This document shows positions 5,111-53,310 of a stretch of DNA of 64,000 nucleotides, in pieces; the stretch's first letter is position 1, and the number at the start of each line of letters is the position of its first letter. The stretch comes from Betaproteobacteria bacterium. GTDB taxonomy: Bacteria; Pseudomonadota; Gammaproteobacteria; Burkholderiales; JAEUOS01. The stretch covers positions 1-64,000 of the forward strand of contig JAQGMJ010000029.1 in the NCBI GenBank assembly GCA_028292405.1, given 5' to 3'. Below the pieces are notes generated by a model. That model was not told where the DNA came from. It did not search any database and was given only the letters and a program-made list of their open reading frames with translations. The position numbers were made by a program, and so were the translations under genes.

Positions 5111-5247
5111 GCGAGAGTCCGGGGGAAGGCGGGTAAGGCGCTATTTTCGCATTGTCGGGCAGTGCGTGCAGCAGCGTGCCGGGAAGAAAAAGCCGCTCCT
5201 CCGGCCTCATTCAGGGCGAAGGCGGCCATCGGTGCACGCCTGCGCCT

Positions 5248-46745: not shown

Positions 46746-46964
46746 TTACTTCGCGGGGGCCTTGTCGTCTTTCTTGGCGTCGCCCTTGGCGGACTTGTCG
46801 TCCTTCTTCATTTCCGACTTCTTTTCGTCCTTCTTCGCGGCGGGGGCCTTGTCGTCCTTCTTCATCGCGCCCTTGTCGTCCTTCTTCATTTCGTCGGCGG
46901 CGAAGACGGTGGTGGTGGTGGCGGCGAACAGGGCCAGGGTGATGGCTGCGAACAGTTTGCTCAT
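46746..46964 (-). CDS. Pentapeptide MXKDX repeat protein
   Basis: 72 residues from ATG 46964 with CTGGAGAAG upstream. Signal peptide ends TTTVFAAD. The mature part is made of Lys/Asp/Ala units of MKKDD(K) type, matching the MXKDX-repeat family of Burkholderiales. Highly charged, probably periplasmic and unstructured. Function unknown. Confidence 0.82.
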   Translation of the reverse strand: MSKLFAAITLALFAATTTTVFAADEMKKDDKGAMKKDDKAPAAKKDEKKSEMKKDDKSAKGDAKKDDKAPAK

Positions 46965-47458
46965 TTGCTTCTCCAGTTTTGGGTTTGGGTACACAGCCGG
47001 GATTTGCCGGCCATGGTGTAAAAACGCTGTGAAAGATGAATCGGTTGACCCGATTTCTGTAAATTGCGTACTTTTGTGGTTTTCCGTCTACGTAAAAACC
47101 CTTAGCAGGTCTGCGCAGCGGCCGGCTTGCGTAAAAAAGCGGCGGGACAAACGGCAAGTCAGAAGCTTGATTTTACACAGATTTCACCGGGTTTTCGAGA
47201 TCTTTTACATGATTTATAGGTTTGACCGTCGATATGCCATTGTTTTAGCAATGTCGCCGTCGCTTTTATTTTTGCGGCGCAGCAAACCGCTGCCGGCGCG
47301 TTGCACGTAGCGATTTTTCCCAGGCGGCAAAAGGCAAAGCCAAAGCCTTGCGCAGTGCACAAGGCCTGTGCCATGAACGGGGCGATGCGGGGGCTTGCCG
47401 CCGGCCATTCGCGGCAGCGGCGCGACATCCAGGCGAAGGCCCGGGAGACCGGGAGGGT
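46965..47458. other. AT-richer intergenic region with repeated GTAAAAA motif
   Basis: About 490 bp without a convincing gene. GTAAAAA or close forms occur at 47018, 47059, 47092 and 47131, and the inverse TTTTAC at 47171 and 47203. The segment is much less GC-rich than its surroundings. It could be a multi-site regulatory region for the MXKDX gene. Confidence 0.4.
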
Positions 47459-48887: not shown

Positions 48888-49112
48888 ATGGAAGCCACTC
48901 TCGAATTCGACCCCGCCATCCAGGCGCGCTGGCAGACGCTGCATGCCGATTACGTGGCGGCGCATCGCGATTACCTCGAACTCAAGCTGATGCGCGACGC
49001 CGCCGACGGCCAGATCACCGACCCCAACAGCCTGCTCAACGCGAAGACGCACCTGGAGCGGGCGCACATGGCCTTGCACGAGTTTTGCCAGACCTATGCC
49101 GAGTACTGTTGA
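48888..49112 (+). CDS. Hypothetical 74-aa helical protein
   Basis: MEATLEFDPAIQARWQTLHA... with alternating charged and hydrophobic residues suggesting a two-helix hairpin (DYVAAHRDYLELKLMRDAA, LERAHMALHEFCQTYAEY). Single Cys near the end and one C-terminal Cys. No family. The 11-bp repeat array begins at its stop codon. Confidence 0.55.
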   Translation: MEATLEFDPAIQARWQTLHADYVAAHRDYLELKLMRDAADGQITDPNSLLNAKTHLERAHMALHEFCQTYAEYC

Positions 49113-49283
49113 GACCCGGCTGGGACCCGGTTGGGACCCGGTTGAGACCCGGTTGAGACCCGGTTGAGACCCGGCTGAGACCCGGCTGAGACCCGGCTGA
49201 GACCTGGCTGAGACCTGGCTGACACCCGGCTGAGACCTGGCTGAGACCTGGCTGGGATCCGGTTGAGACCCGGTTGAGATCCC
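49111..49283. repeat. 11-bp tandem repeat, 15 copies
   Basis: Fifteen units of GAGACCCGGTT / GAGACCTGGCT, exactly 11 bp each from 49111 to 49275, with a partial sixteenth. It fills the space between two convergent genes. The 11-bp period is close to one helical turn and is not a multiple of three. Confidence 0.95.
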
Positions 49284-49305
49284 GCGAGGGACGCCGCCGC
49301 GCCCC

Positions 49306-50262
49306 TCAAGGCGGCACCAGCTCGTTCAGGTGCTCGCCGAGAAAGTCGATGAACACGCGCACCTTCGGGCTCAAGCCGCGCCGCGAGGGATAGACCGCGC
49401 TCAAGGGCGACTCCGGCCCCTGCCACTGCGGCAGCACCCGCACCAGCTGGCCCGAGCGCAAGGACTGCGCGACGAACAGGTCGGGCACGAAGACGATGCC
49501 TTCGCCGCCGATGGCCGCCTGGATCGCCGGCTCCGGGTCGTTGCAGACCATCAGCGGCTCGATCGCCGTGTCTTGCACCGGCGCCTTTTTCTGGCCGTGC
49601 CCGGTTTTTCCCGCTTGCGACTCCACCGCATCCTGACGTAACTCCAGGCGCCAGCCGAAGCGCGTGCCGCGTTCGTCCCTGGGCACCAGCGCCAGGGTGC
49701 GGTGCTTCGCCAGATCCTCCGGCGTGCGCGGCAGGCCCATCTCCTCGATATAGCCCGGGCTGGCGAGCATGCGCGAGCGCATCATCACCAGGGTGCGGCT
49801 GGCATAGCTGGAGTCGGTCAACGGGCCGGCGCGCAGCGCCAGGTCGAAATTGTTTTCCACCAGGTCGACCACGCTGTTCGACAGTAGCAGGGTCACCCGC
49901 ACTTCCGGATAGCGCCGAGCGAATTCCGGCAGCAGGCGCCCGAGGAACTGCGCGCCGACCGAGAACGCGGCGGTGATGCGCAGGTTACCGCGCGGCGTGG
50001 CCGAGAGTTGGCCGACGGCGCGCTCGGCTTCCTCGATCTCCGCCAGGATGCGCTCGCAATGCTCGTAGTAAGCCTGGCCGGCCTCGGTCAGATGCATCTT
50101 GCGCGTCGTGCGCTGCAGCAAACGCACCCCTAAACGTGTCTCCAGTTCGTCGATTTTGCGGCTGACTGTCGCCTTCGGGATGTCCAGGAGATTGGAGGCG
50201 GCAACGAAGCTGCCCCGCTCGACGATCGCCTTGAAGATATTGATTTCATTGAAATTATTCAT
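49306..50262 (-). CDS. LysR-family transcriptional regulator
   Basis: 318 residues from ATG 50262 (MNNFNEINIFKAIVERGS). Winged helix with LLDIPKATVSRKIDELETRLG and LLQRTTRKMHLTEAG; effector domain from NLRITAAFSVGAQFLGRLLP. Between about residues 213 and 236 there is an unusual Gly/Lys/Gln-rich insertion (ESQAGKTGHGQKKAPVQD). It is divergent from the secreted microprotein genes and probably controls them or itself. Confidence 0.9.
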   Translation of the reverse strand: MNNFNEINIFKAIVERGSFVAASNLLDIPKATVSRKIDELETRLGVRLLQRTTRKMHLTEAGQAYYEHCERILAEIEEAERAVGQLSATPRGNLRITAAFSVGAQFLGRLLPEFARRYPEVRVTLLLSNSVVDLVENNFDLALRAGPLTDSSYASRTLVMMRSRMLASPGYIEEMGLPRTPEDLAKHRTLALVPRDERGTRFGWRLELRQDAVESQAGKTGHGQKKAPVQDTAIEPLMVCNDPEPAIQAAIGGEGIVFVPDLFVAQSLRSGQLVRVLPQWQGPESPLSAVYPSRRGLSPKVRVFIDFLGEHLNELVPP

Positions 50263-50417
50263 ACCGCACATCATCCCATTTTTGAGACAGTCAAAACGCA
50301 AAAACCTACTTTATCCGAGATGTTGCAGCGCCTATAGTTCATCCCATCGACGCAACGCACCAAAACTGAATACGCCGATAAAACCAAAAACCGCTAGTAA
50401 TCGAAAGGACTGAAATC
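50263..50417. promoter_or_regulatory. Divergent promoter region for LysR and microprotein genes
   Basis: 155 bp, less GC-rich than average, with TGAGACAGTC-like and TATAGT elements around 50283-50340. The LysR binding site is expected here. No exact box was assigned. Confidence 0.4.
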
Positions 50418-50609
50418 ATGAAAAATATCAAGGCCATTACCGCAGCTGTCCTCCTGCTCACCGCCGCTGGCGCTTACGCCGGCACCGACGATGGCAACGT
50501 GCAGCAAACCAACCAGCAAACCACCAGCCAGGCCCCCGCCCCTGCGGCCGCCGGCGCTTCCTTCGGCACCCGCGTGATCGACTCCGGCATCGTTTCGCCG
50601 AATCCCTGA
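50418..50609 (+). CDS. Secreted microprotein, family member 1
   Basis: 63 residues. Signal peptide MKNIKAITAAVLLLTAAGAYA; predicted mature start GTDDGNV. The middle is Gln/Ala/Pro-rich (QQTNQQTTSQAPAPAAAG) and the tail is SGIVSPNP. It shares the first seven mature residues and the SPNP end with the two genes downstream, while the middle differs. No cysteine. Ribosome site GAAAGGA. Function unknown. Confidence 0.75.
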   Translation: MKNIKAITAAVLLLTAAGAYAGTDDGNVQQTNQQTTSQAPAPAAAGASFGTRVIDSGIVSPNP

Positions 50610-50672
50610 TCCGCCGCGCTTCTCGAAGTCCCGCATTGCTCAAATCCAACAGTTAATCAAAAGGAAATCATC

Positions 50673-50873
50673 ATGACCAACTTCAAACTCCTCACCGCCG
50701 CTGCTCTCGTGTTCGCCGCCGCAGGCGCCTATGCCGGTACCGATGACGGCAACGTCCAGGGTAACGTGGCCCCGCAAGTGGTTGTCAGCCAGCAAGCCCC
50801 GGCGCCGTCGGCCTCCGCCGCCGAAACCGAAGTGCGCACGCAAGACTCCAGCGTCGTCTCGCCGAACCCCTGA
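50673..50873 (+). CDS. Secreted microprotein, family member 2
   Basis: 66 residues. Signal peptide MTNFKLLTAAALVFAAAGAYA, mature GTDDGNVQGNVAPQVVVSQQ, tail SSVVSPNP. Same architecture as its neighbours: conserved ends, variable Gln/Val/Ala middle. Ribosome site AAAAGGAAA. Arranged in tandem 63 bp after member 1. Confidence 0.75.
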   Translation: MTNFKLLTAAALVFAAAGAYAGTDDGNVQGNVAPQVVVSQQAPAPSASAAETEVRTQDSSVVSPNP

Positions 50874-50931
50874 GCCGCCCGCCACACAGCGCCCAGTTCA
50901 ACCAATAACACTGATCAATAAAGGAACCATC

Positions 50932-51156
50932 ATGAAAAACGTCAAACTCCTCACCGCAGCAGCCCTGATGTTCGCAGCCGCCGGCGCCTATGCCGGCACC
51001 GATGACGGCAACGTACCGCAAAACACGCGCAGCAACCAGGTCGCCGCCAACCAGCAACCGAATCAACAGACCCGGCAGGCGCCGGCCCCCGTCGCCTCCG
51101 GCACCCAAGCCCAAGTCCGCAGCACCGACTCGAGCATCGTCTCGCCGAACCCGTAA
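50932..51156 (+). CDS. Secreted microprotein, family member 3
   Basis: 74 residues. Signal peptide MKNVKLLTAAALMFAAAGAYA, mature GTDDGNVPQNTRSNQVAANQ, tail SSIVSPNP. The middle is the longest of the three and rich in Asn and Gln. Ribosome site AAAGGAA. Tandem with members 1 and 2, on one likely transcript. Confidence 0.75.
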   Translation: MKNVKLLTAAALMFAAAGAYAGTDDGNVPQNTRSNQVAANQQPNQQTRQAPAPVASGTQAQVRSTDSSIVSPNP

Positions 51157-51370: not shown

Positions 51371-51553
51371 ATGAAACACATCATTGCAACACTGCTACTG
51401 GCCGGCGCCAGCTTTGGTGCCCTCGGTTTCAACCCGGATCCCACCTACGCCGCCACCACCCCCACCAGCGACCAATACACGCCGATCATCTGCGTGATGG
51501 GTAGCTCCCCGGATGGCTGCACCGACGGCGGTCCCGGCAAGCCGCGCCGCTAG
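51371..51553 (+). CDS. Small secreted protein with two cysteines
   Basis: 60 residues from ATG 51371 with AAGGAAACAG upstream. Signal peptide followed by DPTYAATTPTSDQYTPIICV and SSPDGCTDGGPGKPRR. The two cysteines could form a disulphide loop of about ten residues. Unrelated in sequence to the three preceding microproteins, but in the same direction and before the same terminator. Function unknown. Confidence 0.65.
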   Translation: MKHIIATLLLAGASFGALGFNPDPTYAATTPTSDQYTPIICVMGSSPDGCTDGGPGKPRR

Positions 51554-52179
51554 CGAGCCCGGCGCGCTACAACAGTTGTAGTGCGCCCGGCAGATTTCCC
51601 CTGCGGCCCGGCTTACGGGCTTTCACGGTGCCCACGGGCACCGTGCTTTTTGTTTGGACCGTGAGAAAACGCCCTGAAGTCCCCTTGGGGGACCTTAGAA
51701 ATTTTCGGGATTTGCGCGGACTGCATTTGCGCAACCTGAGAAAACCTGAGGTTTTTTCGTTTTTTCAGTTAGGCGCGAGAGTCCATCTACTACGACTGTA
51801 GTGAGCGAGCTGTGCGCCATCTTCCGAAAATGACAATGAATGATGGTTTTTTCGGAAAAATTTTTGCACCGCCTCAGGCGGGAATTTCTTCGCGTTGGAA
51901 GCTGCGTTGCAACGACACCTCGCCCGCAAACCAGCCTTGCGCCCGGCCGCCTCTTGCACATGTTAAAGAGCCACGCACATCCGCGATAACGCGGGCACTG
52001 GTACCTAACATACGCGAAACGCGCAACTAAGTGTGGTTGATTTTCGCCGCCGTTGTTGACGCTCGCCGGCAAGCGGGGGTATTCTTTGCCGCGTGGGGGC
52101 ATCGCAGATTCCCCGCTGTCGGCAAGGCGCTTGGGCGTCCAAATTCTGCTTCTACCCGTCTTCAACGGAGTCAGAAGCC
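51554..52179. other. Intergenic region rich in inverted repeats
   Basis: About 625 bp without a convincing gene. It contains the palindrome CTACAAC-A-GTTGTAG within 51561-51587, the terminator at 51624-51655 and an AAAACC-TGA-GGTTTT hairpin near 51740-51755. An inverted repeat TTCCGAAAA (51822-51830) / TTTTCGGAA (51849-51857) also lies here. Part of this could be the remnant of a small non-coding element. Confidence 0.45.
51624..51655 (+). terminator. Intrinsic terminator
   Basis: Perfect inverted repeat CACGGTGCCC (51624-51633) / GGGCACCGTG (51636-51645), then CTTTTTGTTT. It ends the microprotein gene group. Confidence 0.85.
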
Positions 52180-53310
52180 ATGGACGCACCCAACACCCCT
52201 CCTTCCTTGCAATCCCGCGGCGCGCGGGTGGCGATACTTTATCCCGGCGACCGCGAGGCGCGCGGCAATCACACGCCGGAGAACAGCCGCTTTGCCGACG
52301 TGTTCCAGGCGCTGGCCGCGCGCGGCGTGTGCGCCGAGCCGGCCGTGTATCACGACGACTTTTCCGCCGAGGTCCGCGAGCAGTTGATGCAGGTGGACGG
52401 GGTGCTGGTGTGGGTGAACCCGATCGAAGGCGAGCGCGACCGCACGGTGCTCGACGCCATGCTGCGCGAGGTGGCGGCGGCGGGCGTGTTTGTCAGCGCG
52501 CATCCCGACACCATCCTCAAGCTGGGCACCAAGGAAGTGCTGTTCCAGACCCGCGAGATCGGCTGGGGCTGCGACACGCATCTGTACCGCAGCATGGACG
52601 AGTTGCGCGGCGCGCTGCCGGCGCGGCTGGCTGCTGGCGAGGCGCGCGTGCTCAAGCAGTATCGCGGCAACGGCGGCAACGGCGTATGGAAGGTCGAGCC
52701 GGTGGAAAACCCGGGCGCGACCGGCGCAACCCTCGTGCGCGTGCGACACGCCAAGCGCGGCAGCTTGGATGAAACCATTGCGCTCGACGAATTCCTGCGG
52801 CGCTGCGAAGTGTATTTTTCCGGCGCCGGGCGCATCATCGACCAGGCCTACCAGGCGCGCCTGCCCGAGGGTATGGTGCGCTGTTACCTGGTGCACGGCC
52901 AGGTCGCCGGCTTCGGGCACCAGGCCGTCAACGCGCTCTGCCCGGCCCCGCCCGGCGCGCCGCCGGAGGCCGTGCCGAAAAACAGCCCGCGCCTGTACCA
53001 CCCCCCTTCGCTGCCGGCCTTTCAATCACTCAAGCACCGGCTGGAGCAGGAATGGGTGCCGGCGCTGCAGCGGCTGCTGGATATCGACACCAGGCAGCTG
53101 CCGGTGATCTGGGATTGCGATTTCCTGCTCGGGCCACGGGACCAGGCGGGGGAGGACAGCTATGTGCTTTGCGAGATCAACACCAGCAGCGTGTCGCCGT
53201 TTCCGGACTCGGCGCTGCCGCTGATCGCGGAGGCTGCTTTCGCGAACACCCGAGACGGGAAAGGCCGAACCTTGTCTGCCGAATATTCTCCGCCCTACAT
53301 GATGCCTTGA
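52180..53310 (+). CDS. ATP-grasp-like protein (Cj0069-type)
   Basis: 376 residues from ATG 52180 (MDAPNTPPSLQSRGARVAIL). N-terminal Rossmann-like part with VAILYPGDREARGNHTPENSR (landmark), VLVWVNPIEGERDRTVLD; then the ATP-grasp central part with LGTKEVLFQTREIGWG and the Gly-rich VLKQYRGNGGNGVWKVE. C-terminal acidic ligands are in VIWDCDFLLGP and VLCEINTSSVSPFPDSAL. It resembles ATP-grasp ligases and the Cj0069 family. Substrate unknown. Confidence 0.78.
   Translation: MDAPNTPPSLQSRGARVAILYPGDREARGNHTPENSRFADVFQALAARGVCAEPAVYHDDFSAEVREQLMQVDGVLVWVNPIEGERDRTVLDAMLREVAAAGVFVSAHPDTILKLGTKEVLFQTREIGWGCDTHLYRSMDELRGALPARLAAGEARVLKQYRGNGGNGVWKVEPVENPGATGATLVRVRHAKRGSLDETIALDEFLRRCEVYFSGAGRIIDQAYQARLPEGMVRCYLVHGQVAGFGHQAVNALCPAPPGAPPEAVPKNSPRLYHPPSLPAFQSLKHRLEQEWVPALQRLLDIDTRQLPVIWDCDFLLGPRDQAGEDSYVLCEINTSSVSPFPDSALPLIAEAAFANTRDGKGRTLSAEYSPPYMMP

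Follow-up and report, generated by a model that had tools for sequence, protein, structure and literature searches.

The window, the whole 64,000-nucleotide stretch of DNA analysed here, carries three short genes in tandem on the forward strand: p1 (50418-50609), p2 (50673-50873) and p3 (50932-51156). They encode putative secreted proteins of 63, 66 and 74 residues, with predicted mature chains of 42, 45 and 53 residues, that of p1 running from GTDDGNV to VSPNP. A Sec-type signal peptide ending in AGAYA, GTDDGNV as mature start, APAP as core and DS(G/S)(I/V)VSPNP as tail are common to all three; AGAYAGTDDGNV is invariant across the copies, VSPNP forms the C-terminal end in each of the three, and p1 has 57% identity to p2 and 65% to p3. 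The cleavage site, between AYA and G, was assigned by judgement according to the -3,-1 rule. Each gene is preceded by a ribosome-binding site of the AAAGGA/AAAGGAA type, GC3 is 0.78-0.81, and the products contain neither Cys nor His; the mature chains are hydrophilic, neutral to acidic and rich in Gln, Asn, Pro and Ala.

Divergently from p1-p3, on the reverse strand, lies a gene for a LysR-type transcriptional regulator of 318 residues (49306-50262). Downstream, 215 bp past the end of p3, starts a further small reading frame on the forward strand, p4 (51371-51553), with a signal-peptide-like start and two Cys; it has no sequence in common with p1-p3 and no homologs in 59 other genomes. No terminator-like site was found on the forward strand in the gap that separates p3 from p4, and p4 is followed by a strong intrinsic terminator (9-bp stem and T tract; 51624-51655, forward strand); p4 may therefore share the transcript of p1-p3. 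The initial annotation had described the three tandem frames with near-identical signal peptides, GTDDGNV starts and (I/V)VSPNP tails, together with a fourth secreted peptide and a strong terminator, all of which were found; the single transcript that it had proposed for p1-p3, divergent from LysR, is likely.

The recognised neighbours of p1-p3 comprise lysR, p4 and the gene for a Cj0069-family protein (52180-53310; NF033816, 357.9 bits against a cut-off of 150), which also carries a DUF6815 domain; no immunity, processing, dedicated export or metal transport gene was recognised beside the three genes. A tandem array of an 11-bp unit (TGAGACCCGGC, 15.8 copies; 49110-49284) sits at the end of a reading frame closing at 49112, before the lysR 3' end. 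On the reverse strand, 46749-46994 encodes a secreted Lys/Asp-repeat protein of 82 residues, which is MXKDX-like (17.8 bits against a curated cut-off of 41).

Family membership and distribution

The family was defined by a short reading frame with a signal peptide ending in GAYA and a mature start of the form [GA][TS]DDG[NT]. Five members were found, all within one 5.5-Mb genome: p1-p3, a 48-residue paralog on contig C50 with the exact GAYAGTDDGNV sequence (L019:7547-7693) and a 111-residue paralog on contig C22 with GAYAASDDGTS (L018:5692-6027). The C22 protein recovers p3 when used as a query (E=4.8e-4), and its gene is the first one divergent from a second LysR, 69% identical to that of the window; as the signal peptide makes up part of the matches, its assignment to the family leans on genomic position as well. 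Weak profile matches within the same genome, on C8, C49 and at C22:125574, were dropped for lack of a matching signal peptide at the start.

No homologs of the family were found in 119 other genomes (relatives, four of them from the same taxonomic family), and scans of genome contigs, plasmids and viral contigs revealed no relatives. When 398 further genomes from the order were scanned, the DNA pattern for AYA-x-x-DDG yielded few, scattered matches at the level of controls, none of them in small secreted reading frames. The family is thus called lineage-restricted at the sampling level of the genomes compared here. A 16S fragment of the genome matches replicons of Cupriavidus, Caballeronia and Paraburkholderia at ~90% identity, which makes the bacterium Burkholderiales-like. 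Comparison of p1-p4 with Pfam, NCBIfam, PHROGs and PADLOC, in which a score above the cut-off or an E-value below 0.001 was counted as a match, assigned them to no family (best E=0.009-0.1, far below the cut-offs). A PDB sequence search for the small proteins returned noise only, and a literature search on the family found nothing. The earlier failure to assign p1-p3 to a known family therefore stands, and the search beyond the genome suggested with it turned up no known, single-copy, conserved family.

Constraint along the small proteins

Judged from their sequences, p1-p3 are real protein-coding genes under constraint and not chance reading frames, because non-synonymous differences between the copies lie far below synonymous ones in the signal peptide and mature head (pN 0.06-0.15 against pS 0.40-0.57; Fisher P 0.0002-0.0012). 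Purifying selection on this part, as read from these ratios, is clear, in line with the selection on processing or export that the initial annotation had suggested; GTDDGNV alone shows no non-synonymous change at all at a pS of 0.4-0.8. The pS of the LysR pair of the window and C22 (0.54) is similar to that of the p1-p3 copies, and on this measure the duplications that gave rise to p1-p3 are not recent.

The middle behaves differently. In its alignable part pN exceeds pS, albeit not significantly (P = 0.10-0.54), the comparison comprising 5-8 synonymous sites, indels and an uncertain alignment. Diversifying selection on the centre, the second half of the earlier suggestion, is thus unsupported, and relaxed constraint on a low-complexity linker or spacer is sufficient to account for it. 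The description as fixed ends around a variable centre holds as far as the ends are concerned, but conservation extends beyond them, p1, p2 and p3 having APAP and R..DS in common as well.

This distribution of constraint could mean that essentially only export matters, p1-p3 being regulated orphan genes whose products are filler or by-product proteins without any specific contact. Constraint is indeed strongest in the signal peptide and the first seven mature residues, and the C50 and C22 paralogs retain little beyond signal peptide and head. However, the fixed GTDDGNV, APAP, R..DS and VSPNP exceed what signal peptidase needs, and the copies are old, with a pS similar to that of the LysR pair, yet p1-p3 are all intact; this alternative is considered unlikely. 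Three paralogs with constant ends and a variable centre, in a lineage-restricted family, would also fit a role as pheromone-like signals or bacteriocin-like antagonists that are exported and owe their specificity to the variable middle. Such a role is improbable given the lack of a demonstrable non-synonymous excess, the hydrophilic mature chains devoid of Cys and the Sec-type signal peptide in place of a double-glycine leader; among the neighbours of p1-p3, no gene for immunity, processing or dedicated export was recognised. An assignment as bacteriocin or class II microcin was dropped because the signal peptide is of the Sec type and no adjacent immunity or export gene was recognised.

The AlphaFold model of p1 shows coil after a short helix in the signal peptide (pLDDT 54.6). 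It is suggestive of disorder in the mature chains of p1-p3, although with three sequences a low pLDDT also fits a shortage of data. The model gives no structural support to ligand binding by the GTDDGNV head, with a metal ion or some other small molecule as the periplasmic partner, a role that would make p1-p3 small binding or buffering proteins. Adjacent aspartates in the invariant head, and SDDG in the C22 paralog, speak for such binding; with neither His nor Cys in p1-p3, no known metal motif and no metal transport gene recognised by the locus, it is very improbable.

The LysR regulator and its putative boxes

The regulator of the window, which the initial annotation had named as a divergent LysR, combines an N-terminal HTH_1 domain (2.7e-19, 69.3 bits against a Pfam cut-off of 26.6) with a C-terminal LysR_substrate domain (2.7e-40, 138.4 bits against 28), the domain architecture of the LysR type. 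Its scores with the nearest NCBIfam models stay below their cut-offs (YafC, 231.9/470; PRK14997, 204.5/380; AaeR, 153/425). Within the genome, the C22 LysR is by far its nearest relative, with 53 identities over the first 65 residues; the closest homologs outside are found at loci L050 and L051 (52-53% identity). Among other homologs (40-53% identity), the divergent gene encodes a GST, flavodoxin-fold, LigB-like or DoxX protein, or a gene for a NodT-type efflux outer-membrane subunit lies nearby. Because homologs of the regulator face other genes elsewhere, the small proteins look younger than LysR and its box pair, and the gene opposite lysR seems, from these comparisons, to have been swapped in this lineage. 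A possible parallel was considered in genome G004 and set aside: 162 nt from a 42%-identical LysR, almost the same distance as here, lies a divergent, low-complexity secreted reading frame of 62 residues (L007:2530-2718), which is unrelated, has no boxes and is a singleton in 250 genomes.

Two putative LysR boxes were located between lysR and p1, both on the forward strand: box 1, TCATCCC (50271-50277), 8 nt upstream of the lysR start codon, and, 40 bp away, box 2, TTTATCC (50310-50316). Box 2 includes the hexamer TTTATC, the candidate -35 element of p1; with TATAGT as -10 element (50333-50338, forward strand) after a 17-nt spacer, the putative promoter of p1-p3 is TTTATC-17-TATAGT (50310-50338), and L050, L051 and L056 show the same arrangement. 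The C22 intergenic region, where TTATCCC takes the place of box 1, carries the pair [TC]ATCC–40 bp–TATCC as well, with the boxes T[CT]ATCCC and TTTATCC in register; in an alignment of the two regions 29 of 72 positions are identical (P 0.004), including two identical runs of at least 5 (P 0.001). As the box pattern was chosen after the first two loci had been viewed, and the -10 pattern after reading of the same upstream regions, recurrence in other genomes and the scan of the whole genome are the more independent evidence: the box pair at 40-41 bp occurs at 6 of 29 LysR loci, L050 and L051 among them, against 0.07 expected in shuffles; box 2 serves as -35 for a TA[ACT]AGT -10 element at 17-18 nt in 4 of the 6 (0.03 expected in shuffles), the window included; and within the 5.5-Mb genome the strict pattern ATCCC-N32-35-TTTATCC is confined to two sites, one in each lysR/small-protein intergenic region.

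At L056 (TTATCCCG...CGGGATAA) and at the C22 locus L018 (TTATCC-N8-GGATAA), box 1 is a full dyad upstream of LysR, suggesting, on sequence symmetry, a complete LysR operator palindrome. The C22 intergenic region also contains a short tandem repeat, ATTTCAAC, in about five copies (L018, ~5120-5165).

Control of p1-p3 by LysR is well supported by these sequences, and more firmly than by proximity, because the module is co-duplicated, operator-like boxes are common to both copies and their pattern is unique to these two loci in the genome. The arrangement fits an activator-dependent LysR promoter; LysR binding and the direction of control are inferred. Two observations count against this explanation: the C22 intergenic region has no TA[ACT]AGT -10 element at the fixed spacing, and the 400 bp upstream of the C50 paralog contain neither a LysR gene nor the boxes.

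Proposed function and comparison with known systems

The best explanation, put forward tentatively and with slightly more doubt than belief, is a lineage-specific, LysR-controlled operon of exported disordered proteins that are envelope-protective or scaffold-like and induced by a small toxic molecule. It would operate in the following manner: LysR, divergent from a short operon with three or perhaps four genes for short exported proteins, would bind the pair of ATCC boxes in the intergenic region, of which the distal one provides the p1 promoter with its -35 hexamer. An inducer-dependent change in this binding would switch the operon. After Sec export, the signal peptide would be cut between AYA and G, releasing unstructured chains of 42-53 residues into the periplasm or to the outside, where head and tail may provide the functional contacts and the middle a spacer; that these chains protect the envelope is speculative. 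The neighbours of the LysR homologs, GST, flavodoxin-fold, LigB-like, DoxX and NodT-type genes, hint at a small-molecule stress inducer, and a small toxic or aromatic molecule is at most a reasonable guess, the clue coming from homologs of 40-53% identity with different neighbours. It is conceivable, if doubtful, that a LysR switch whose counterparts in relatives face genes for detoxification or efflux was rewired, in one lineage, to a newly arisen, duplicated family of disordered exported proteins that use their fixed head and tail to bind a conserved target in the envelope or outside the cell. The locus is a compact case of a regulator and operator-like boxes that look older than the gene they face, itself part of a lineage-restricted exported family; with a binding site, a promoter and just two target loci predicted in the genome, it lends itself to testing how orphan secreted proteins come under regulation.

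Among known small exported proteins, the pentapeptide MXKDX repeat proteins (TIGR02953) resemble p1-p3 in being low-complexity proteins without an assigned role, but they consist of Lys/Asp repeats and have no sequence in common with them. The acid shock protein Asr, like further small, disordered stress proteins of the periplasm, is Sec-exported, short, unstructured and inducible, as p1-p3 would be; Asr is basic and rich in Lys and Gln, whereas p1-p3 are neutral to acidic. The regulatory half of the locus corresponds to LysR-type divergent units (YafC/PRK14997/AaeR-like subgroup), in which lysR is likewise divergent from its presumed target and a box pair lies upstream, the distal box overlapping the -35 element of the target; the homologs face enzyme or efflux genes, whereas here the regulator faces genes for tiny exported orphan proteins.
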